A stretch of DNA of 64,000 nucleotides from Alphaproteobacteria bacterium 46_93_T64 (GTDB lineage Bacteria; Pseudomonadota; Alphaproteobacteria; Sneathiellales; Sneathiellaceae), in NCBI GenBank assembly GCA_002163135.1, contig MAAN01000011.1, positions 186,001-250,000 on the forward strand, given 5' to 3'. Positions 31,966 to 62,707 of this stretch are shown in pieces. A model generated the notes under the pieces. It was not told the origin of the DNA and did not search any database. It saw only the letters and a list, made by a program, of their open reading frames with translations. Within the stretch, counting starts at the first letter, position 1. Each line of letters opens with the position of its first letter. Position numbers and translations under genes: made by a program.

Positions 31966-32439
31966 ATGAGAGAAATCGCGTCTATAATTGTCTTTGTTTG
32001 CCTTCTTGTTCCCTCGGCCTTTGCAGAGGGGATGAAAGGCACCGCCACTGTTCTAGATGCTGTGACCCTCCAAATTGGGGCGGCGAAGTTTCGCCTGCAG
32101 GGTATTGGTGCACCTAAGCCCGGTCAAATTTGCAAAAACAGAATTGGCAAGAACTATGATTGTGGGGCGATTGCCGCGACCGGCCTTATGGATCTAACCG
32201 CAGGCGCAGTGGTTGACTGCCGATATCTCGATAAAAACCTCACGCAGAAAAGTTGGGCACGCTGCTTTGCAGATGGCTATGATCTGTCAAAAGGCATGGT
32301 GTATACAGGATGGGCTCTTCCCTTGATTAAAGATGATCCTGCTTTTGCTTCAGTCTTGAACACGGCCAAAACCAAGAAGCACGGTCTTTGGGCAGGTACT
32401 TTTTCTTCACCCGTAAGCTGGTCTCACAACGCTCAATAG
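31966..32439 (+). CDS. secreted thermonuclease-like (SNase-fold) protein
   Basis: Signal peptide; GTATVLDAVTLQIGAAKFRLQGIGAPKPGQIC SNase-like start. Confidence 0.65.
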   Translation: MREIASIIVFVCLLVPSAFAEGMKGTATVLDAVTLQIGAAKFRLQGIGAPKPGQICKNRIGKNYDCGAIAATGLMDLTAGAVVDCRYLDKNLTQKSWARCFADGYDLSKGMVYTGWALPLIKDDPAFASVLNTAKTKKHGLWAGTFSSPVSWSHNAQ

Positions 32440-32525: not shown

Positions 32526-33704
32526 ATGAGAGTGAGCATATATACATCGGCAAGGTTCCCAGAATATAGAACCCTTATAGTGGTCGCAGTGTTGATCTCG
32601 ATTATCGGATCTCTCTTGTTGTCAAACATGAACATGGCTTGGATGTTTACAATTGCGCTTTTCATGGGCGTTTCTCTTTATCATGCTGCATTTGGTTTTA
32701 GCGCGGCTTATCGTCAGCTGTTCTTGCATAGACACGTCAAGGGAGCACAAAGCCATCTTATTCTAATTGGTATAACGACACTCCTGTTTGCCCCGTTTCT
32801 GGCGGAAGGATCTGCTTTTGGAAATCCAGTTGGCGGTGCAATCGCACCTGTGGGGATTGGAATGGCGTTCGGTGCCTTCATCTTTGGTGTTGGTATGCAA
32901 CTAGCTAATGCGTGCGCATCTGGGACGTTATATACAGCCGGGGGTGGGAACCCGAGAATGCTGATTGTACTGATTTTTTTCTGTGCGGGTGCATTCTGGG
33001 GAAGTCTTGACTTAAGCTGGTGGCAAGACCTTCCTGGATTTGGCGCCGTGTCGCTTGGTGAAAAATTCGGGTGGACAACAGCAGTATCACTCCAACTAAT
33101 ATTCTTGGCTGTCATTTTTGTGTTGTTGAGAGTGTTTAGCCAAAACGAAAAGATCGAAACAGATACTGATACGGATCAAACGCTAATGTCAAAACTGTTT
33201 CGCGGTCCCTGGCCGTTGGTTTGGGCGGTTCTCTCACTTGCTTTTTTAAATTGGTTAACGCTGATAAGCGCGGGGCACCCATGGTCAATTACATGGGGAT
33301 TTACACTTTGGGCTGGGAAATCCGCACTCCTTTTAGGCTGGGATCCAGCAACGAGCAGTTTTTGGTCCAGTGGTTTTCAACTAAACGCGCTCAGAGGTTC
33401 AATATTGGCAGATACAACATCTGTTATGAATATTGGAATTTTGGCTGGGGCTGCTCTTGCCTCTCTTGCTGTAAAACGTAAAACGGCAAGTTGGAGCGGG
33501 CGGAAATGGCGTTCAATGTTAGCAGCGATTATAGGCGGGCTATTGCTAGGGTACGGTGCACGGTTAGCTTATGGATGTAACATTGGCGCTTTTGTGAGTG
33601 GTGTGGCTTCCACAAGTTTACATGGATGGGTTTGGATAGTGTGCGCGCTTCCGGGAAACTGGATCGGCGTGAAACTAAGGCCATACTTTCATCTAACGAA
33701 TTAG
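32526..33704 (+). CDS. YeeE/YedE (TsuA-type) thiosulfate/sulfur transporter family protein
   Basis: Duplicated motifs ANACASGTLYTAGGGNPRMLIVLIFFCAGAFWGS and YGCNIGAFVSGVASTSLHGWVW; multi-TM. Confidence 0.85.
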   Translation: MRVSIYTSARFPEYRTLIVVAVLISIIGSLLLSNMNMAWMFTIALFMGVSLYHAAFGFSAAYRQLFLHRHVKGAQSHLILIGITTLLFAPFLAEGSAFGNPVGGAIAPVGIGMAFGAFIFGVGMQLANACASGTLYTAGGGNPRMLIVLIFFCAGAFWGSLDLSWWQDLPGFGAVSLGEKFGWTTAVSLQLIFLAVIFVLLRVFSQNEKIETDTDTDQTLMSKLFRGPWPLVWAVLSLAFLNWLTLISAGHPWSITWGFTLWAGKSALLLGWDPATSSFWSSGFQLNALRGSILADTTSVMNIGILAGAALASLAVKRKTASWSGRKWRSMLAAIIGGLLLGYGARLAYGCNIGAFVSGVASTSLHGWVWIVCALPGNWIGVKLRPYFHLTN

Positions 33705-33736: not shown

Positions 33737-34231
33737 ATGCGTAGTCAGTTAAAAATATCAAAGGCCCAGTATCTTTTAATTGCTGGTGGTGTGCTGGTCT
33801 CTAATCTATTAGGCAGTCAAGCTATAGCCGCGCCGACAATAATTGAGCTGGTTCAGGTGCCGTGCCAGTTTCTGGGAATAGAACAGGATCACGGATTTAC
33901 TTCACAGAAAAAGGCCGATTGTGAAGCGATAAACGAGAAAACAGCGGCTGAACGGCTTGAAAAATCAAAGGTGATGATGTTGAAGCCCGGCGAGTATATT
34001 TTTCGTGTGAGCAATAAAAACGTCCCTTATGAGCTTGGGTTTTGGCTTCGAGAAAAAGATTATAACTGGGCGAATCCAGTACACAAGCTGACAAAAACTA
34101 GTATTTCTGGCGGCGGAATGCATATGGGAAAAACAATAGAATATGAGGTAACGCTTAAACCTGGTGAGTATCTCTTTTCGTGCCCATTGAATACGACACC
34201 GGATTATAACCTTATCGTGTCTGATAGTTGA
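33737..34231 (+). CDS. secreted cupredoxin-fold-like protein
   Basis: Signal peptide; GGGMHMGKTIEYEVTLKPGEYLFSCPLNTTPDYNLIV resembles a cupredoxin C-terminal strand/Cys loop. Confidence 0.5.
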   Translation: MRSQLKISKAQYLLIAGGVLVSNLLGSQAIAAPTIIELVQVPCQFLGIEQDHGFTSQKKADCEAINEKTAAERLEKSKVMMLKPGEYIFRVSNKNVPYELGFWLREKDYNWANPVHKLTKTSISGGGMHMGKTIEYEVTLKPGEYLFSCPLNTTPDYNLIVSDS

Positions 34232-34239
34232 GCTTTGGG

Positions 34240-35115
34240 TTAATCTTCTCGAACGAGACGAAAACCGATTAGAATGTGTTTGAGGGCAGCAGGGCGACTG
34301 TGACGTGCCGCTGCCCGGCAAACACCGCATCCTTTGTCATCCCAAGAGCCCCCCTTTACAATGACACGGTCATTGCCTGCTACATTACGGGTCCATTCGA
34401 AAACCTGTCCCGCCGCATCCATCATCCCGTATGGGCTTTTGCCATTTGGAAAACCACCAACCGGCGTTGTGTCAAACGGACCAGCATCATGGCTATTGAG
34501 CTTCATTGCATCAAAACCGTTACCCCATGGAAAATACCGACCGTCAACACCTCGCGCTGCCTTTTCCCATTGTCTTTCAGTGGGGAGTAGCCACTGATTT
34601 CCAGTTCGCTTTGAAAGCCAATTCGCATAGGCTTTCGCATCAGTCTGCGATATCAGGACAACCGGATGATCCTTTCTACCTGCGGGTAGTGATCCTTTTT
34701 CCCAGAAAAATCTTTGAGTTCTTTCAAACGGATGTACAAGTCCATAGCTATGCCATGTTTCTGCCGTCACATAAGGTGCTACGTGGGCAGTCTCGCGAAT
34801 GAAAGCCGCATACTGATTATTGGTGACCAGATTTTCAGTAATGGAGAATGACGGCTCAAAAATTGTACGTCTTGGTATTTCGTTTTCATACCACCCACCA
34901 ACTCTTGTGCGATTATGGCCATAGGATTTTTCATCTAAACGATAACCATATTCGCGTTCAGTTTTATCCGAGCCTTGAATGAATTCTCCCGCAGGAATTT
35001 GGAGCAGTTTCGGGATTTCGTCGATTTTATCATCCGCATTAGCAATAGGTGCATACGCAATTAAGGCAATGATGAGTGTTGCGCTGATATTCGTCACTGA
35101 AATTTCCTTTTTCAA
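34240..35115 (-). CDS. formylglycine-generating-enzyme (SUMF1/NirV-like) family protein, secreted
   Basis: IPAGEFIQGSDKTEREYGY, WLLPTERQWEKAARG, KGGSWDDKGCGVCRAAARHSRP, IGFRLVRED. Confidence 0.88.
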   Translation of the reverse strand: MKKEISVTNISATLIIALIAYAPIANADDKIDEIPKLLQIPAGEFIQGSDKTEREYGYRLDEKSYGHNRTRVGGWYENEIPRRTIFEPSFSITENLVTNNQYAAFIRETAHVAPYVTAETWHSYGLVHPFERTQRFFWEKGSLPAGRKDHPVVLISQTDAKAYANWLSKRTGNQWLLPTERQWEKAARGVDGRYFPWGNGFDAMKLNSHDAGPFDTTPVGGFPNGKSPYGMMDAAGQVFEWTRNVAGNDRVIVKGGSWDDKGCGVCRAAARHSRPAALKHILIGFRLVRED

Positions 35116-35232: not shown

Positions 35233-36453
35233 ATGCGTGCGTTTCGTCTTAAGCTCAAATACTCTACATTTATTCCAGTATTGTTTGGGGCAGGGATAGT
35301 TGTCGTCGGAAGTGCTGTCGCAGCAAACCAACCCAGCACACATCAAAATCTGACCCAGACAATTAATCCATCTGCTGTTTCAAAAACGAACCGAGTATCA
35401 GCGACTTTGGAGATTGTAGTTGCTGCAAACCCTTGCAATCCGTGTGCTGCGAAAAATCCATGCGCGGCAAAGAACCCTTGTAATCCATGCGCTGCTAAAA
35501 ACCCTTGTGCCGCAAAAAATCCATGTAATCCATGTGCCGCGAAAGCGGGAATTTCTTCAAAAAAATGCTTTATTCCACGTCTTCATGCTTCGATGAGCCG
35601 ATGTAACCCATGTGCAGCCAAAAACCCATGCGCTGCGAAGAATGCATGTAACCCATGCGCAGCTAAAAACCCATGCGCTGCGAAGAATGCATGTAACCCA
35701 TGCGCAGCTAAAAACCCATGCGCTGCGAAGAATGCATGTAACCCATGCGCAGCTAAAAACCCATGCGCTGCGAAGAATGCATGTAACCCATGTGCAGCTA
35801 AAAACCCGTGCGCTGCGAAGAATGCATGTAACCCATGTGCAGCTAAAAACCCATGCGTCGCAAAGAACCCATGTAATCCATGCGCCGTCAAGAACCCTTG
35901 TGCTGCCGCAAATCCGTGTAACCCCTGTAATCCGTGTGCTGCTGGTGAAGTTCCCGAACTCACTGCTGCTGAAGCGAGTGCTGCATATGATTGTTTGAAA
36001 GACAGCATGGCTGCTGGATATGCAAAGTCAGGTGTCTCTGAAATGGCGGATTATACAAGTTGGGTCAACGTAGCAACTAGCCCTTATCAGGCAGGTACCC
36101 ATGGTGACCGTTATGTAAATAATTGGATCAACGAAATTGGACTGGCGCGGTACCAGAAGTATGAAGAACTCGGCACGATGCCGGTAGGATCTGTCGTTGC
36201 AAAAGATAGTTTTTCTGTGAATAGCAAAGGCCAAACGTCTGCCGGACCAATGTTCTTGATGGAAAAAATGCGAGACGGTTTTGCTCCTGCGACAGGAAAC
36301 TGGCGCTATACAATGGTGATGCCGAATGGATCGGTATTCGGCCGTACGAATGGCAAGAATTCGGCTGCAATGGTATTTTGCTCGGACTGCCATCAAGCCG
36401 TTGCAGAAGATCAGGATCACTTGATGCTTCTACCTGATGAGAACCGTAAATAA
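35233..36453 (+). CDS. secreted Cys-rich CNPCAAKNPC-repeat protein with C-terminal cytochrome P460-like domain
   Basis: Signal peptide, about 12 CNPC motifs, C-terminal domain with heme motif VFCSDCHQAV (CxxCH) and P460-like MFLMEKMRDGFAPATGNWRYTMVMPNGSVFG. Confidence 0.75.
   Translation: MRAFRLKLKYSTFIPVLFGAGIVVVGSAVAANQPSTHQNLTQTINPSAVSKTNRVSATLEIVVAANPCNPCAAKNPCAAKNPCNPCAAKNPCAAKNPCNPCAAKAGISSKKCFIPRLHASMSRCNPCAAKNPCAAKNACNPCAAKNPCAAKNACNPCAAKNPCAAKNACNPCAAKNPCAAKNACNPCAAKNPCAAKNACNPCAAKNPCVAKNPCNPCAVKNPCAAANPCNPCNPCAAGEVPELTAAEASAAYDCLKDSMAAGYAKSGVSEMADYTSWVNVATSPYQAGTHGDRYVNNWINEIGLARYQKYEELGTMPVGSVVAKDSFSVNSKGQTSAGPMFLMEKMRDGFAPATGNWRYTMVMPNGSVFGRTNGKNSAAMVFCSDCHQAVAEDQDHLMLLPDENRK
35602..35871 (+). 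repeat. 45-bp tandem coding minisatellite (about 6 near-identical units)
   Basis: Unit TGTAACCCATGCGCAGCTAAAAACCCATGCGCTGCGAAGAATGCA beginning at 35602, 35647, 35692, 35737, 35782, 35827 (last diverging). Confidence 0.95.
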
Positions 36454-36547: not shown

Positions 36548-36838
36548 ATGCTTAAAAAATCACTTACAGCTACTGCTTTCGGTCTAACAATTCTATCCGC
36601 CGCAGCAATTGCTGCGGTTCCAGCGGCTCAGGCAGAACAAAGAGATGGGCAAATTGTAGTTGCTGCAGCTTGTAACCCTTGTGCAGCTAAGAAAAATGCC
36701 TGCAATCCTTGCAACCCATGTGCCGCAAAGAAAAAGAACGCATGTAATCCATGTGCTGCAAAGAACCCTTGTAATCCATGCGCTGCGAAGAACCCTTGCA
36801 ACCCATGTGCTGCAAAGAATCCATGTAAAGCCAGCTAA
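36548..36838 (+). CDS. secreted small Cys-rich CNPCAAK-repeat protein
   Basis: Signal peptide MLKKSLTATAFGLTILSAAAIAAVPAAQA then CNPCAAKKNACNPCNPCAAKKKNACNPCAAKNPC... Confidence 0.75.
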   Translation: MLKKSLTATAFGLTILSAAAIAAVPAAQAEQRDGQIVVAAACNPCAAKKNACNPCNPCAAKKKNACNPCAAKNPCNPCAAKNPCNPCAAKNPCKAS

Positions 36839-38126: not shown

Positions 38127-38202
<76 letters not shown>

Positions 38203-41022: not shown

Positions 41023-41328
41023 CTACAATTTCTTGCGAGCTTCAAGAAAATCCTTTGACCAGCGGTAATTGGGGGTCCGCATGCTGCCCTTCTGGCGGCA
41101 GAGTTCTGCAATACCGTATTCACCACGTAGGCGTTCGAGCACCATGCGGACCTTTTCTTCTGCTGAATACTGTTTGTGTGTTGCCCGGCGTATGTCTTTG
41201 ATTGCCTTCGTGGCACCCGTCTGTATTGTCTGCGATTTCAGTTTTATCTGGATTTCTTGAAAGGTCTGCCTTGGGTCAACAACAGTTGTTTTCGATAGTC
41301 TAAAAACACTTCTGCTTTGCCCCCTCAT
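41023..41328 (-). pseudogene. IS3-family transposase OrfA remnant
   Basis: KQYSAEEKVRMVLERLRGEYGIAELCRQKGSMRTPNYRWSKDFLEARKKL resembles OrfA HTH; OrfB absent. Confidence 0.75.
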
Positions 41329-50939: not shown

Positions 50940-51935
50940 ATGCCAATAGAGAAAACCAAGGGTATATTAAAACTCACGCACCACTTACACACATTAAAAG
51001 TGGGGGCTTCCGTTGATGAAATTTCTGAAGAATACGGTATCAGCCGCCGAACCGCGTATCGCTGGTTAAATGAAATAAGAAACTCTGGTCTTTGGGAAGT
51101 AGAAACTGTTGAATATTCTGGTGAAAGTGGTGTTGTTCGATACAAAATTGTTTCGGCTAAAATGCCAACGTCACTAAATATCGGGCCCGATGAATTAGCT
51201 GATCTGGAAGTTGCTGTATCCAAATTCAAACAAGATAACCTTTTACCGCAAGCAAAACGTTTACAAGGATTACTAAATAAGGTGCAGGCGCTTATGGATG
51301 CTCCCACATTAACGAAGTCCACAGCTGACCTAGAAACACTTACCGAAGCAGAAGGGTTGGTAATGCGGGTTGGGCCACGGCCAAACATCAAGCCCTTGAT
51401 TATGGATGCATTGAGGAAAGCAATAAAAGCCTCTTCTGAAATCACAATCCGCTATCACAACAGAACACGAGGAACAACGAAAGACAGGCTCGTTAGGCCA
51501 TATGGTTTTATCCATGGTCATCGACATTACCTTGTTGGATTCCACATTCATGAAAAAGCCAACTGCGTCACCATGTTCAGAATACCGGATATCAAATCAG
51601 TAAAGCTGACAGATCGTATTTTTGTAAAGCCATCTGATTTCAATCTTCAAGAATTTACTGAAAGGTCGTTTGGCACATATCAGGAGGAGCCCTTCGATGT
51701 TGTGTGGAAGTTCTCTCACGAAGCCGCGGAGGCAGCAAAAGACTTTCAATTCCACCCCTCCCAAACATTGGACGAACAAATAGACGGCACTCTCGTCGTA
51801 AAATTTCGAGCAGGAGGCCTGTTGGAGATGGCATGGCACTTGTTCATGTGGGGAGATAAAGTTGAGGTTATTGAACCGTTAAAACTACGCGATATGATGG
51901 AAAACCATCGGCCAAACTGGGACGCGCTTCCATGA
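50940..51935 (+). CDS. HTH/WYL-domain transcriptional regulator
   Basis: ASVDEISEEYGISRRTAYRWLNEIRNSG HTH; ITIRYHNRTRGTTKDRLVRPYGFIHGHRHYLVGF WYL domain. Confidence 0.88.
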   Translation: MPIEKTKGILKLTHHLHTLKVGASVDEISEEYGISRRTAYRWLNEIRNSGLWEVETVEYSGESGVVRYKIVSAKMPTSLNIGPDELADLEVAVSKFKQDNLLPQAKRLQGLLNKVQALMDAPTLTKSTADLETLTEAEGLVMRVGPRPNIKPLIMDALRKAIKASSEITIRYHNRTRGTTKDRLVRPYGFIHGHRHYLVGFHIHEKANCVTMFRIPDIKSVKLTDRIFVKPSDFNLQEFTERSFGTYQEEPFDVVWKFSHEAAEAAKDFQFHPSQTLDEQIDGTLVVKFRAGGLLEMAWHLFMWGDKVEVIEPLKLRDMMENHRPNWDALP

Positions 51936-56864: not shown

Positions 56865-59800
56865 TCAAACCAATTGAACCAGTCCTCCTGTCACCGCGAA
56901 ATGAATCCATTTACTGATCACTGGTTTCCCTGTGGCTTTACTGATGCCTTTTGCATAAGCTTCAAGTTGCCCCGAATAACTGAGGGCAATTTTCTCCCAT
57001 TCTGATTTCGCGCGTGGGGAAGCCTTGTGGTCAATGAGAATAAAACCTTCGTCTGTCTCCAGTAACAGATCTATCCAACCGGCTATGCGTTGGCCTGTTT
57101 CGAGTTCGTATTGAATGGGATATTCTGAGTAATACCGGATAGGTTTAAAGTTGTCAGAAACGGCACTCAGAAAACGGTTAACGGATTCCTCAGCAGCTTC
57201 CTTTGAAATGGTATTCTGCATTTCGTGGTCTATAAGTATGCGTTTGGTAGCATCCTGTCCCAATATTGTCGTGGCGATTACTGCATGTAATGCTGATCCG
57301 AGCGTCGCCGGGTCATAGTGACCACTAACTTCAATGCGATCGCCTAGTGGAATTATTTCTCCAACGCTTGCCGTTTCAATAGGCTCGGCGCTGGAAGGAC
57401 TTACTTTCAGGGGTAGAAACTCTTCTTTGTGAGTAGCTGTTAGAGGCCAGATTGGTTTGAATTCTTCGGTGGAAGTTATTGACTCTCCAGCACTCAATTC
57501 ACGGACCCGGCTGGGTATTGAGGTACCATCGGGTAAAGCAAGCATATCACCGCCAGGAAGCATCCAGTCCGCATCCAATGTACCCATCCACGGGCCTGTA
57601 TCCGTCTGGTTAGGCATTGTAATGATCAGGGCGTCGCGGGGACGAGTGAGAGATACGTATAACAATCGTTTTACTTCGGCGATCTCCTGCTTCGAGGCGA
57701 CAACTCCCTCTGGGCTTGCTTCTATTTCCTCGATTAGTGCAACATTCTGGCCCTGTAAGCCAAAGAACAATGGCCAATAGCGAAGAGTACGACCTGCAAG
57801 TGGATTTTCCAATGTTATTGGTTCCGGAGACGGCAAAACTGAAAGTCCCCAAATTCGTGGTTTCAACTTCGATTCAAGATCGATAGCAATCACAATAGGC
57901 CATTCCAAACCTTTGGCCCCGTGATGTGTGATGAGCTGGATCGCATCTTCACTTTCTCCCCCTGCCTGAGTGTCTTTCTCCGCTTCTTTCAAGGCGTATA
58001 GCCAAAGGATCAGGCCTGCAGATGTTGCCGGTTCATTTTGAGCTTCACACTGACCGATATAGTCGTCTGCATGCCGCAGAAGAGCTGAAAGATTATTCAT
58101 GCGATGCTGGCTTTGATGTGCACTGGGGCCCCATCGAAAGGCACATTTTTGAACATCTCCAGCATCCATTGCCACACGGAGAGCTTCAACTGGAGTCAGA
58201 AACGGAAGGCGACTTCGCGCTGCTTTCAATGCCGCCAGTGGGCCATCTTTTATATCTTCCAGCCAGGCGTTTGATCGGACATCTGGATCTTTTAAGTAGT
58301 CTATGCGTTTACCAATCCAATTTTCCGGATTTTCGCAAGTCGTCAGGCTGTGGATTTCTGCCGTGGCCAGGGTGTCTAGAGGATCAATGAGGCGGCGGAA
58401 GCATGCCATTGCCAAGCTAGCCTCGGGAGTATTCAGAAGGCCAGCCCGATTATAACGGATCGGTAGGTTGGCTTCAGCCAGTGCGGTCGCTATTTCTTCC
58501 AAATTAACGTTTGTGCGGCAGAGGATAGCAATATCGCTGAATGTTGCTTTGCGCTGTTCATCTGTTTCTTTATCAACGATTGTTTTCCCATTCCCAAATA
58601 ATGAGAGAATTCCTTCCGCAAGGGCTTGGCTTCTCAGTTTTTTATTTTTCCCTGCGAGGCGCCAAAGCTCAACAGCGGGCTCGCCTAAAACAGGTTTTCG
58701 CGCGGCTTCAAGGGTCACCTGTTCAGCAGACAAGGTGTCTGAAAATGCGGGTGCAAAAAGATTATTGGCATATGCCACGAGGTCTGGGGTGGATCGCCAT
58801 GATTTTCCGAGTATCTCGAGAGACTGACCATCTTCAATAATGCGGTCAACCACGGCAGTCATGAGAGAGGGGTCAGATCCACGAAACCCGTATATGGACT
58901 GCTTCACATCCCCAACCCAGATCACCTGATCCGCAAGCTGCGAGAGTTTGAGAAAGAGGGCTAACTGTATTGGGCTGGTGTCCTGGAATTCATCCACCAT
59001 GAGAAGTTGGAGTTCTTCCTTCAGGGTTTGTTTTACCAACGGATTCTCCAGCAGCTTGTACAGGCGTTGCTCCTGGTCAACGAAATCGATAAGACCCTTT
59101 TGGGTTTTTACCTGCTGATAGGCATCGAGTGTATCAGCAGCAATTTCAAAGGCTTTCTCAGCAAAATTTCTGATGTCCTCTTGAAGCCGCGAGTGTTTTC
59201 CAAAGTCGATTGCAATATCGGCAATTAGCTCGGCGTAAGATTTAGATTTGGCGCCTGGCCAATTTTTTTCTTTAGTTAGAGCAATCCATTCAGCCCAGGT
59301 CGCTCTTCTATTTTGTAGAGCAGTTCTGAGGCCCTGGATCCGGGAGAGGTATTCGCGTGTTTTTTTCGTTCCGTCTAAATCCGTATCAATGCTCGAGATC
59401 GCAGCAGTTAAAGAGCCAACCAAGGCTTCATCTAAATTGCGACCCGTTGGCGCGGGGAAATGCGATAACAGTTGATCCGCACTGGACCGGCCCAGATGTC
59501 TGATATCATCAGCTGACTGGTTGTTGGCACGCGCCGCATCAACAATCGACTTTATTTCCGCGCGCCATTTCATCTGATTGTTTTTATCGTTGATCTGAAG
59601 ACGGTGGCAAAGATCGTTCATTTGTTTTAAGGGAGCTGTATCTTTCTCAAATACTTGCTCCATCGCCCGATAGAAAACGATTTCACTCTGAACCTCATCT
59701 AGCACCTGCTGGTCAGGCGGCATGCCGGCTTCGAAGGTGAAACGCCGAAGGATTTCTCCGCAAATGCTGTTGACAGTACCAATCAGAGATTGTTCCATCT

Positions 59801-60008
59801 GATTTGCTACGTCGAGCCTGCCAGACAGTATCAGTTTGCTGCGAACACGCTCTTTGAGTTCGCCAGCGGCCAGCTTGGTAAATGTTGTTGCAATGACACC
59901 AGCAGGTTCAACTCTTCCTGAAGAGAGCATTTCTTCCATTTTTTCAGTAAGTGTATAGGTTTTACCGCTGCCAGCACCGGCACTGATGAAATTAATGTTT
60001 ATGTTCAT
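56865..60008 (-). CDS. UvrD/AddA-like helicase-nuclease
   Basis: FISAGAGSGKTYTL Walker A, LMVDEFQDTSPIQ, WVGDVKQSIYGFRG, LLYVSLTRPRDALI; C-terminal GWIDLLLETDEGFILIDHKAS...QLEAYAKG nuclease. Confidence 0.92.
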   Translation of the reverse strand: MNININFISAGAGSGKTYTLTEKMEEMLSSGRVEPAGVIATTFTKLAAGELKERVRSKLILSGRLDVANQMEQSLIGTVNSICGEILRRFTFEAGMPPDQQVLDEVQSEIVFYRAMEQVFEKDTAPLKQMNDLCHRLQINDKNNQMKWRAEIKSIVDAARANNQSADDIRHLGRSSADQLLSHFPAPTGRNLDEALVGSLTAAISSIDTDLDGTKKTREYLSRIQGLRTALQNRRATWAEWIALTKEKNWPGAKSKSYAELIADIAIDFGKHSRLQEDIRNFAEKAFEIAADTLDAYQQVKTQKGLIDFVDQEQRLYKLLENPLVKQTLKEELQLLMVDEFQDTSPIQLALFLKLSQLADQVIWVGDVKQSIYGFRGSDPSLMTAVVDRIIEDGQSLEILGKSWRSTPDLVAYANNLFAPAFSDTLSAEQVTLEAARKPVLGEPAVELWRLAGKNKKLRSQALAEGILSLFGNGKTIVDKETDEQRKATFSDIAILCRTNVNLEEIATALAEANLPIRYNRAGLLNTPEASLAMACFRRLIDPLDTLATAEIHSLTTCENPENWIGKRIDYLKDPDVRSNAWLEDIKDGPLAALKAARSRLPFLTPVEALRVAMDAGDVQKCAFRWGPSAHQSQHRMNNLSALLRHADDYIGQCEAQNEPATSAGLILWLYALKEAEKDTQAGGESEDAIQLITHHGAKGLEWPIVIAIDLESKLKPRIWGLSVLPSPEPITLENPLAGRTLRYWPLFFGLQGQNVALIEEIEASPEGVVASKQEIAEVKRLLYVSLTRPRDALIITMPNQTDTGPWMGTLDADWMLPGGDMLALPDGTSIPSRVRELSAGESITSTEEFKPIWPLTATHKEEFLPLKVSPSSAEPIETASVGEIIPLGDRIEVSGHYDPATLGSALHAVIATTILGQDATKRILIDHEMQNTISKEAAEESVNRFLSAVSDNFKPIRYYSEYPIQYELETGQRIAGWIDLLLETDEGFILIDHKASPRAKSEWEKIALSYSGQLEAYAKGISKATGKPVISKWIHFAVTGGLVQLV

Positions 60009-62707
60009 CCGTTTGTCCTCCAGCCGGTAATGGCAGAATAATCATTAAAACTGTCACTCGTTTTGGGTATTTCCAGACCATCCTCATCAGCCTTAGACTC
60101 GTCGGTAGGCTCGGTACCAGATACGGTCACTTCGATAAGACCTTGATCAAATTGTTCCTTGCGCCACCGCCAGGTATGTTCAAATCGCTGCCAGTATTGC
60201 GGCCAGTTTTCCTGATTTTCCGGAATAATGCGTTCAGCACCTGGAAACCAATCATGATCCAGGCTGAGCATTTGAGCGTCATTCACGATGAAAAAGCTGA
60301 GGGCAGGAGAATGAGCAGGATTTATGCCAAAACGCATATGGGCGTATGTCGCTAACTGAAGATAGTTACTGGATAGCAAGGACTTGCGTCTATATGTTCG
60401 CCCGCCCCATTTTATATCAATTATGGCTTCTTTACCGTCATTGCGGGTCGCTAACAGGTCGATCGAGCCTGTCAAGTTGCCACCTATAAAAGTACCATTT
60501 TGCCCGAGCTCCATCTGGACACTGACTATTTTTGCCTGCTGCAACTGACCAATCAGGAAAGAGAGTGAATCCTGTAAAATACGAATAAGTTGCTGACACT
60601 CGGCCTGGCGCCCAAGTTCGAGCAAATTGGCCCCTTCCTGCTGAAATAGCGTTCGGGCGTGTTTCTCCACCCAATCAGGAATAAGCGAAATATCAATCGC
60701 CTGTATGTCCGTGTGGTTATTCAGAAAAATCTCGTAGAGGCGATGCGCTAGACTACCTTTCAGCAGGTTGCCGTCCTTCACCTTGGCAAGTGATCCAGCC
60801 TTTATTCTGGCAGCATACCGCAACAACCATTGGTAGGGGCTGTGAATATAGGCGTCGAGGCTTGAATATGATTCAAATTCTCTGGGAGATAATTCTACAT
60901 TTTCAGGTAATTTCCACCATCTGGCCCGGGCAGGGAGAGCTTGAATTTCAAGCTCGGATTGAGAAATTCCCAGAGATGAAAGGACACCATCATCTCCGAG
61001 TGAGAATACTGGCAAGCCTTCCGTTAGACTGGATATTTGATCCCACACAGGGTGGTGGCGATCGACATCGCTGTGAAGAACAATAACGCATTTCTCAACG
61101 GTGTTCAGGATGGGTCTTAGCCATGCCTTGCCGAGCCATTTCAGTTGCGCATCTTCCGTCTGCAATTGAACACCATTATCTGCAAGTGCTTTTCTCTCAG
61201 CCTTGGACCAAGGCCAGCGGTGGATATGGTCAGTTGCCTGACAGTCCCACCAGACTACTGAGTTTACGGGATCGTAAAATGCACCAGCATGTTCTGCCCG
61301 AAGGGCTTTCGGCAGCCCTGCACAAGTTTCTGCCTGTCGGTCTGCGACTGGAGCGCCTGTTCCTCTCACGTCTTCGATGAGGCGCTGTACATTGTCTCTT
61401 GTTAGCGTATCGAGACCGTGAGCCTTAAGGCGTTCGATGGCGTGCACAAATTCATTGGTTTGATTTTGCGCAATGTAATACAGAGATTTCAGGGTTGGAT
61501 TTTCGGTTGCTTCCGTTGCCTCTATCAACCAATTGGCGATCCTCTGTGCACGCTCAGTAAGTGTTGCGCTATCCACTCCACTCGTTGGTGAAAATCGAGG
61601 AGATTCCAGCCAGTAACGGATATTTTTCAGCTGGCGCTCTTTGGATTTCCCGTCTTCATCAGCCAAGCAGTGTTCAATCGCTTTTTCCCATTCAGCACTG
61701 CCTATACCTGGAACATCTGCGACAACTCGCGCCAACTGTTCGCGATGACGAGCTGGAATTGGTCCTAAGGAATGGGACAAAAACTGAAATAGTGCAGTTG
61801 TATTCAGAGGTTTCCATAGGAGGTCGCAGGCCAATGGCAACACTTGAAAAATGGGCCGCCAGGGTGATAATGCGCTATAGCCCAGGCGGGGATTGTTTGT
61901 TGCCTCAAGCATTTCGTCAAGCAGGTCACCCCGTTTTTCCGCCAGGATAGCGTGAGATTTGTCTGGGAACTCTGTAAGCCGTTTTTGAGTGAGAAGCGAG
62001 GTCATCAGGAGACTGTCATGCACAGAACTTGCGCGTAACACAACGATCGAGCCATCACCACTAAGGCCGACTTTTTCATTGGACGACCGAAGGAGGTGCT
62101 GTTGCAGATTGTATATATCACTTCCTGCTGCGCCTTGAGGAGGTATGTCTTCAGCCTCGGTGACTGAAGTGCCGACAGCTTCAATCAGCCGTTGCCACAG
62201 ATACGGAAAATCCACCAGTTGATCCAGCAGATGTATAGACGCAATAGCGACCGGGTTATTGGCAAGTAACTCAATCACCTTCTGTATGCGCTGGCCGAGT
62301 CCTGGTTCTACCGCGCCCGCTGCAATTTTCTCAATAGCCGCCATATCGACAAGTTTGGGTGGGACGGCTTTGTCAAACCGGCTATTCCATCCTGCGAGAT
62401 ACCAGTGATCCCGCCACTGCAAGAGTGTTTTAGCCACTGAAAATGGGTCGGCATCATAGGAAGCATGATAAAAAGCATTCTTATGATTGGTTTGTTCAAC
62501 GCAAGCCAGATATTGAATCATGCGGGCTGTGAAAGAAACATCGGAAGTCGGAATGCCTAGTTGGGTTTCTAGCAGGTTCAAGAAACCGTTGGGGCCAACA
62601 GTGATTGTCCCGAGCGCATCAGAAGGGGCAGCGGGCAGGGCGCCATCGGCTTTGAGGCCGAGAGAGACGTGAATTTTACTCGATACAATTTCTAAATCGG
62701 CAGCCAT
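60005..62707 (-). CDS. AddB-like protein with C-terminal PD-(D/E)XK nuclease
   Basis: GNLTGSIDLLATRNDGKEAIIDIKWGG...YLQLATYAHM nuclease; 4-nt overlap with the AddA-like gene. Confidence 0.85.
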   Translation of the reverse strand: MAADLEIVSSKIHVSLGLKADGALPAAPSDALGTITVGPNGFLNLLETQLGIPTSDVSFTARMIQYLACVEQTNHKNAFYHASYDADPFSVAKTLLQWRDHWYLAGWNSRFDKAVPPKLVDMAAIEKIAAGAVEPGLGQRIQKVIELLANNPVAIASIHLLDQLVDFPYLWQRLIEAVGTSVTEAEDIPPQGAAGSDIYNLQQHLLRSSNEKVGLSGDGSIVVLRASSVHDSLLMTSLLTQKRLTEFPDKSHAILAEKRGDLLDEMLEATNNPRLGYSALSPWRPIFQVLPLACDLLWKPLNTTALFQFLSHSLGPIPARHREQLARVVADVPGIGSAEWEKAIEHCLADEDGKSKERQLKNIRYWLESPRFSPTSGVDSATLTERAQRIANWLIEATEATENPTLKSLYYIAQNQTNEFVHAIERLKAHGLDTLTRDNVQRLIEDVRGTGAPVADRQAETCAGLPKALRAEHAGAFYDPVNSVVWWDCQATDHIHRWPWSKAERKALADNGVQLQTEDAQLKWLGKAWLRPILNTVEKCVIVLHSDVDRHHPVWDQISSLTEGLPVFSLGDDGVLSSLGISQSELEIQALPARARWWKLPENVELSPREFESYSSLDAYIHSPYQWLLRYAARIKAGSLAKVKDGNLLKGSLAHRLYEIFLNNHTDIQAIDISLIPDWVEKHARTLFQQEGANLLELGRQAECQQLIRILQDSLSFLIGQLQQAKIVSVQMELGQNGTFIGGNLTGSIDLLATRNDGKEAIIDIKWGGRTYRRKSLLSSNYLQLATYAHMRFGINPAHSPALSFFIVNDAQMLSLDHDWFPGAERIIPENQENWPQYWQRFEHTWRWRKEQFDQGLIEVTVSGTEPTDESKADEDGLEIPKTSDSFNDYSAITGWRTNG

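Follow-up and report, generated by a model that had tools for sequence, protein, structure and literature searches.

A cysteine-repeat protein fused to a P460-type cytochrome, its association with DUF6969 and a possible role as periplasmic thiol carrier

What would a bacterium do with dozens of exported cysteines tethered to a P460-type heme? The question is raised by a gene in the window analyzed here (a stretch of 64,000 nucleotides taken as a whole) that encodes CNPC repeats followed by a heme domain. A sequence-only reading had proposed metal binding or redox buffering by the repeats next to an enzyme acting on hydroxylamine or NO, had called the combination unusual, and knew of no assigned function. 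None was found in the literature searched either: papers on CNPC motifs, cysteine-rich P460 and Sneathiella P460 yielded nothing relevant.

The fusion gene and its cysteine array

The gene (35233..36453, + strand), supported by its open reading frame and its homologues, encodes a 406-aa NPC/CNPC-repeat protein fused to a P460-type cytochrome; it starts with ATG, and AGGAGT is found 5' of the start. The N-terminus carries a Sec-type signal-like segment (MRAFRLKLKYSTFIPVLFGAGIVVVGSAVAA) followed by a short linker, as judged by eye; the signal peptides of all proteins described here were assigned in this way from the translations. The whole protein contains 36 Cys and 26 NPC motifs. The earlier description of a secreted, thiol-dense repeat with about 12 CNPC motifs was borne out: 33 Cys and all 12 CNPC fall in a 172-residue repeat region (aa 67-238; 35431..35946, + strand), and the count of CNPC is exactly 12 as compared to two or fewer in 5000 shuffles of the protein. 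TRF detected the tandem array at 35427-35906 with a 45-bp unit. The region is arranged in two blocks, in which three CNPC units are followed by a 19-residue divider, six near-identical 15-residue units (CNPCAAKNPCAAKNA type) and a degenerate tail. When the six clean 45-bp units were compared we observed 29 synonymous and 10 nonsynonymous codon differences, all ten of the latter involving the last unit. The differences are thus mostly synonymous, which indicates that the protein sequence is kept and not the DNA alone. The divider between the blocks (AGISSKKCFIPRLHASMSR; 35545..35601, + strand) has the core KKCFIPRL, and a motif of the C-x-x-P-R-L type, with V/F and V/I at the two variable positions, was found in 63 of the 72 homologues whose left end is complete. 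An interpretation of this 19-residue interruption as an insertion or frameshift was rejected, as it is a conserved divider across the homologues. Long antisense ORFs over the repeats (for example 35583-36008, - strand), which recur as neighborhood "clusters", were rejected as shadows of the repeat. The two-block array with its divider was absent from the sequence-only reading, and so was a free-standing CNPC protein encoded at 36548-36838.

A domain-profile scan of 85,462 species genomes found 364 relatives, and the best 80 of these were taken as the homologue set. The best 80 of 364 belong to Alphaproteobacteria wherever a lineage is named (some are given as "Proteobacteria" only) and include Sneathiella, Pelagibius, Kiloniella, Aestuariispira, and Rhodospirillales MAGs. 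The search for the same fusion had been suggested, and Cys repeats were seen in almost every one of the 80 best among the 364 relatives. The combination, earlier called unusual, is conserved in hundreds of relatives and is not a singular oddity. Transfer by plasmid was rejected, as a search of a plasmid collection gave no match. Among the 72 left-complete homologues only four, all from Kiloniella, have no Cys repeats; these close P460 relatives are followed, on the other strand, by a gene for a PAS histidine kinase. Ten Pelagibius and Kiloniellaceae loci have a second, repeat-free copy of the P460 domain just upstream of the CNPC-P460 gene.

The number of xPC motifs in the left-complete homologues (n = 72) has a median of 21 and ranges from 0 to 57. 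Such wide variation is seen in structural repeats, and together with the many evenly spaced CxxC pairs it would fit a rigid disulfide or surface polymer (an envelope layer), in which the heme catalyzes disulfide formation or is a passenger. We consider this very improbable, since it does not predict the requirement for DUF6969, the YeeE link or the short free-standing repeat protein described below, and since single-Cys NPCAA units are found in many lineages (for example at loci L200, L224, and L242).

The P460-type heme domain and its replacement in other lineages

The Pfam/NCBIfam scan of the full-length fusion protein returned no P460 match; the probable cause is that the composition filter is triggered by the repeats. 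When the C-terminal 169 residues were scanned alone, PF16694 (Cytochrome_P460) was matched with 33.9 bits (E 4.7e-8; curated cut-off 27). The domain (aa 272-395; 36046..36417, + strand) was modeled with a pLDDT of 94. All 12 Foldseek matches with E<=0.001 were P460/c'-beta proteins (top matches 7ead, 7s5o, and 2je2), and these were also the only significant matches of the model in the PDB; the best one, 7ead (E 4e-7), belongs with 7s5o to the cytochrome c'-beta group. The heme c attachment motif CSDCH (C383-H387; 36379..36393, + strand) is of the CxxCH type that is invariant in 81 of 81 sequences. The earlier assignment of the C-terminal domain as P460-type with CxxCH thus stands. A gasdermin likeness in a single-sequence PDB search was dismissed as chance matches; the profile and Foldseek searches gave P460.

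Besides the heme motif, two positions bear on the hydroxylamine/NO reading. K324 (36202..36204, + strand), invariant in 81/81, aligns with the heme-cross-linking lysine of cytochromes P460 (Lys70/78/106) in a multiple alignment with NsP460, and again when profiles were compared separately with classical P460s from related genomes (E 6e-6). Judged from these alignments, the lysine at the P460 cross-link position is kept. In the profile comparison, the distal carboxylate position, which is Asp/Glu in catalytic P460 (the proton acceptor Glu96/Asp102 of active members), aligns with F341 (36253..36255, + strand), a Phe that is invariant in the CNPC-P460 family. The comparison used was that of A1 versus A4; one of A2 versus A4 was set aside because three members of A4 are also in A2, which makes it circular. 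E344, three residues past F341, is nearly invariant, and the role of the distal carboxylate may have been shifted or rearranged onto it. It has been reviewed that active P460s have both the distal carboxylate and the lysine, and that NsP460, which has the lysine without the distal carboxylate, does not oxidize hydroxylamine (PMC11928373). With the lysine and no carboxylate at the usual position, the CNPC-P460 domain looks like a "halfway house" protein in the sense of that review. The missing carboxylate bears on activity and not on family membership, because NsP460 lacks it too and is still called a P460.

Compared to the cytochromes P460 (CytL; NeP460, McP460, and NsP460), the fusion shares PF16694, the CxxCH near the C-terminus, the P460/c'-beta fold, and the position of the cross-link lysine. 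It differs in its long N-terminal Cys repeats with the divider, an extra N-terminal helix, the Phe at the distal carboxylate position, and the sulfur-type and FGE-like neighbors of its cassette. The cytochromes c'-beta (CytS; McCP-beta, TtCP-beta, and NeCP-beta) include the best structural match and have a hydrophobic distal residue like that of the fusion, but the fusion keeps the P460-defining lysine and is in this respect a "halfway house" like NsP460. Other Sneathiella genomes (L010, L012, L013, and others) encode a separate classical P460 which, unlike the CNPC type, has Asp/Glu at the distal carboxylate position. We know of no sulfur chemistry reported for P460 domains.

In other lineages the repeats are joined to a different heme. 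At loci L237, L241, and L244 they are fused to a SoxA/TsdA-type cytochrome c (PF21342; 39.7, 30.6, and 33.5 bits, respectively; cut-off 27) beside DUF6969, in genomes G426, G660, and G646, two of which are outside Alphaproteobacteria; a fourth fusion of this type, L239 in G643, was recognized by alignment. All four share one invariant Cys 39-41 residues after CxxCH, which, going by its spacing alone, may be equivalent to the SoxA heme ligand; the PDB alignment with a solved SoxA did not reach it. In L237 the heme domain is flanked by repeats on either side, and DUF3179 genes adjoin the L237 and L244 fusions. With P460 replaced by a SoxA/TsdA-type heme, the constant parts are the repeat and DUF6969, and the heme domain is interchangeable. 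This weakens the proposal of a hydroxylamine/NO enzyme, in which the P460 domain does the work and the Cys repeat is a redox buffer or a disulfide-bonded stalk protecting it. The family, the fold, and the invariant K324 are what that proposal expects. The Phe at the carboxylate position, the inactivity of NsP460 on NH2OH (PMC11928373), the exchange for an unrelated cytochrome c while repeats and DUF6969 stay, and the Sneathiella genomes that keep DUF6969 and CNPC codons without a P460 match make it improbable.

DUF6969 and the NPC arrays

The DUF6969 protein (PF22308; 36950..37669, + strand) is encoded downstream of the repeat genes. No signal is apparent in it, so it is presumed to be cytosolic and to act upstream of the Sec export of the repeats. 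Its model is confident (pLDDT 91.3, pTM 0.91) and shows no known fold, with no match in the PDB better than E 0.8. The invariant residues of DUF6969, which is found in families across Pseudomonadota, include H56, D61, D64, H74, H76, H83, H85, and H118, and this His/Asp set looks like a metal site. A literature search for DUF6969 returned nothing relevant.

We observed a close association between DUF6969 and the arrays, a CNPC array being defined as three or more pattern matches (G282 was excluded because its three matches lie on three contigs). All 35 of the 339 genomes of the class Alphaproteobacteria with CNPC arrays are DUF6969-positive, as compared to 87/339 (26%) overall (Fisher 4e-24), all 24 array-bearing genera are positive (p 8e-17), and tandem NPC repeats by a looser pattern (NPCAA) occur in 22 of 67 further DUF6969-positive genomes (a few of the 22 with a single match only) and in 0 of 80 negative ones (p 3e-9); these p-values ignore relatedness and therefore overstate the evidence, co-occurrence across related genomes not being independent evidence per genome, and the genus-level and between-class checks address this only in part. 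The link holds where the genes are unlinked, for example in four genomes (G001, G019, G022, and G023) in which the small CNPC gene is distant from DUF6969 and is flanked by genes for an FAD oxidoreductase and a histidine kinase. The few cases detected outside the class (G426, G643, G660, and G708) also follow the rule. Within Sneathiella, three DUF6969-negative genomes that are at least 98% complete (G006, G012, and G015) have no CNPC array, and six others, some incomplete, show no P460 match yet retain DUF6969 along with a short stretch of CNPC codons (G004, G005, G014, G017, G020, and G024).

About half of the DUF6969-positive genomes have no array by the patterns used, and DUF6969 may thus have other partners. 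As arrays were counted by DNA patterns, repeats that have diverged are undercounted, among them those of the CGACGG type next to DUF6969 in L164, L198, and L222. At these three DUF6969 loci (L164:5687-6073 in the first case) there are no NPC repeats; other exported Cys-rich repeats of the CGGSHAGDC and CGACGGC types are found, and the non-NPC repeat of L198 is fused to P460. On the patterns searched, NPC-repeat arrays are found only in DUF6969-positive genomes within the genomes surveyed, and the repeats probably depend on DUF6969. It is conceivable, at a lower level of confidence, that NPC repeats are substrates of a new maturation class: DUF6969, a putative cytosolic metalloenzyme with an unseen fold, would modify or load the cysteines before Sec export, and the result would be a periplasmic thiol polymer carried on interchangeable c-type hemes (P460 in Alphaproteobacteria, SoxA/TsdA-type mostly elsewhere).

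The cassette and its candidate cargo

Next, we examined the neighboring genes. The gene order in the window is SNase-like, YeeE/YedE, cupredoxin-like, FGE-like (divergent), CNPC-P460, small CNPC protein, and DUF6969. The SNase-like secreted protein (31966..32439, + strand) scores below the Pfam cut-off and occurs in 6 homologous loci. It is followed by a homologue of YeeE/YedE-family sulfur transporters (PF04143 family match; 32526..33704, + strand) and a cupredoxin-like secreted protein (33740..34231, + strand) with conserved Cys (CQFLx..., SCPLNxTP) and no obvious His/Met copper ligands. The small secreted CNPC-repeat protein (36548..36838, + strand; 96 aa) has 12 Cys and 6 CNPC. Near the fusion in the 81 loci, many of whose contigs end early, we counted DUF6969 in 31, the small CNPC protein in 29, FGE in 28, YeeE in 17, and the cupredoxin-like protein in 12. 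The secreted FGE/SUMF-family protein (34240..35115, - strand) is encoded divergently, 118 bp from the fusion gene, and this arrangement is kept in most of the 28 loci. It is a genuine SUMF-family protein (PF03781, E 2.6e-40; PDB matches to ToxD, CalU17, SUMF2, OvsA, and FGE). As a clear member it resembles FGE, SUMF2, CalU17, and OvsA, and it differs from them in being secreted and, by eye, in having a conserved GCGxC segment rather than the usual FGE active-site pair. At seven loci, including L060 and L062, the strand opposite the fusion carries, some 1.7-1.9 kb upstream of it, a gene that was named by eye as an MsrB-like methionine sulfoxide reductase. PADLOC found nothing, and promoter and terminator scans performed no better than shuffles.

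The neighbors and the alternative heme partner point to sulfur chemistry at least as much as to metal. YeeE genes are also found beside divergent DUF6969 genes (L165, L224, L225, L228, and L247). The SoxA/TsdA cytochromes with the SoxYZ carrier offer the nearest parallel on this side: the alternative heme fusions match PF21342, and a Cys carrier, a heme, and a YeeE-type transporter follow the same logic. The protein in the window differs in carrying P460, and its carrier is a repeat, not a SoxY arm. Taking these together, we tentatively favor a periplasmic thiol carrier with a tethered heme redox partner, a DUF6969-dependent repeat precursor, and a sulfur-leaning cargo. In the cytosol, DUF6969 would modify, load or hold the cysteines of the repeat precursors ahead of their export by Sec. 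Once in the periplasm, the Cys array would function as a multivalent ligand or carrier, with sulfane or thiosulfate-derived sulfur as the most likely cargo, while the tethered heme would carry electrons for making or breaking bonds on the thiols, YeeE/YedE would move sulfur species across the membrane, and the free-standing CNPC protein would serve as a shuttle or reservoir. As cargo, sulfur is weakly preferred over metal because YeeE/YedE recur, because sulfur is carried in Alphaproteobacteria by SoxT proteins, which are related to YeeE (PMC11582611), and because hemes of the SoxA family form Cys-S-thiosulfonate by joining thiosulfate to a cysteine (PMC4423706).

A soft metal comes close behind, given the bufferin-like gene layout and the metal-type genes at one locus. 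The corresponding alternative is a metal buffer, an exported sponge for Cu(I), Hg(II) or Zn like bufferins or metallothioneins, in which DUF6969 takes over the maturation done elsewhere by MNIO, as a new maturase, and the heme keeps metal or thiols reduced or senses NO. It draws on the thiol density and on the bufferin-like order of a Sec-type signal, a Cys-rich core (by inspection of the translations), and an adjoining gene for a presumed cytosolic partner (PMC12452194), with a thiol-rich product that is predicted to be exported as for MNIO-modified peptides. The flanks of the L244 cassette (MerR, HMA-domain, and flavoprotein reductase genes) also fit metal cargo, as do the genes for a VTT-domain protein and a MerA-like flavoprotein that flank the small CNPC gene in other loci. 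The reading as a canonical MNIO bufferin was discarded, since PF05114 has no match in the whole of the organism's own genome (two control genomes were positive). The partner here is DUF6969 with an unmatched fold, and the repeats are NPC/CNPC and often heme-fused. No known copper-export gene was recognized among the recurrent neighbors, the cupredoxin-like protein has no standard copper ligands, and the YeeE and SoxA/TsdA-type associations are left unexplained, so that we rate the metal buffer as somewhat unlikely.

If the favored thiol-carrier reading is correct, a periplasmic thiol system not described before would be at work in hundreds of mostly marine bacteria, and its components would include a protein without a known fold as well as a heme domain so far associated with nitrogen chemistry. 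This would provide the first functional handle on DUF6969 and a third kind of job for the P460/c'-beta superfamily, and Sec-exported modified peptides could extend beyond MNIO enzymes.

The small CNPC gene also occurs in a second type of locus (L149-L152, L156, L158, L162, and L167), where the order is mostly a VTT-domain (TVP38-like) protein, a MerA-like flavoprotein, the small CNPC protein, and then a sensor histidine kinase; in L162 the SCPLN cupredoxin-like protein is also present before the kinase. In the window, the only Rfam element near the cassette is a tRNA-Lys at 38127-38202. The stretch that follows (38.5-64 kb) is poor in recognizable housekeeping genes and is possibly an island inserted at the tRNA; it contains a transposase-like 101-aa ORF (41023-41328), a WYL regulator at 50940, and large genes at 56865-62707.
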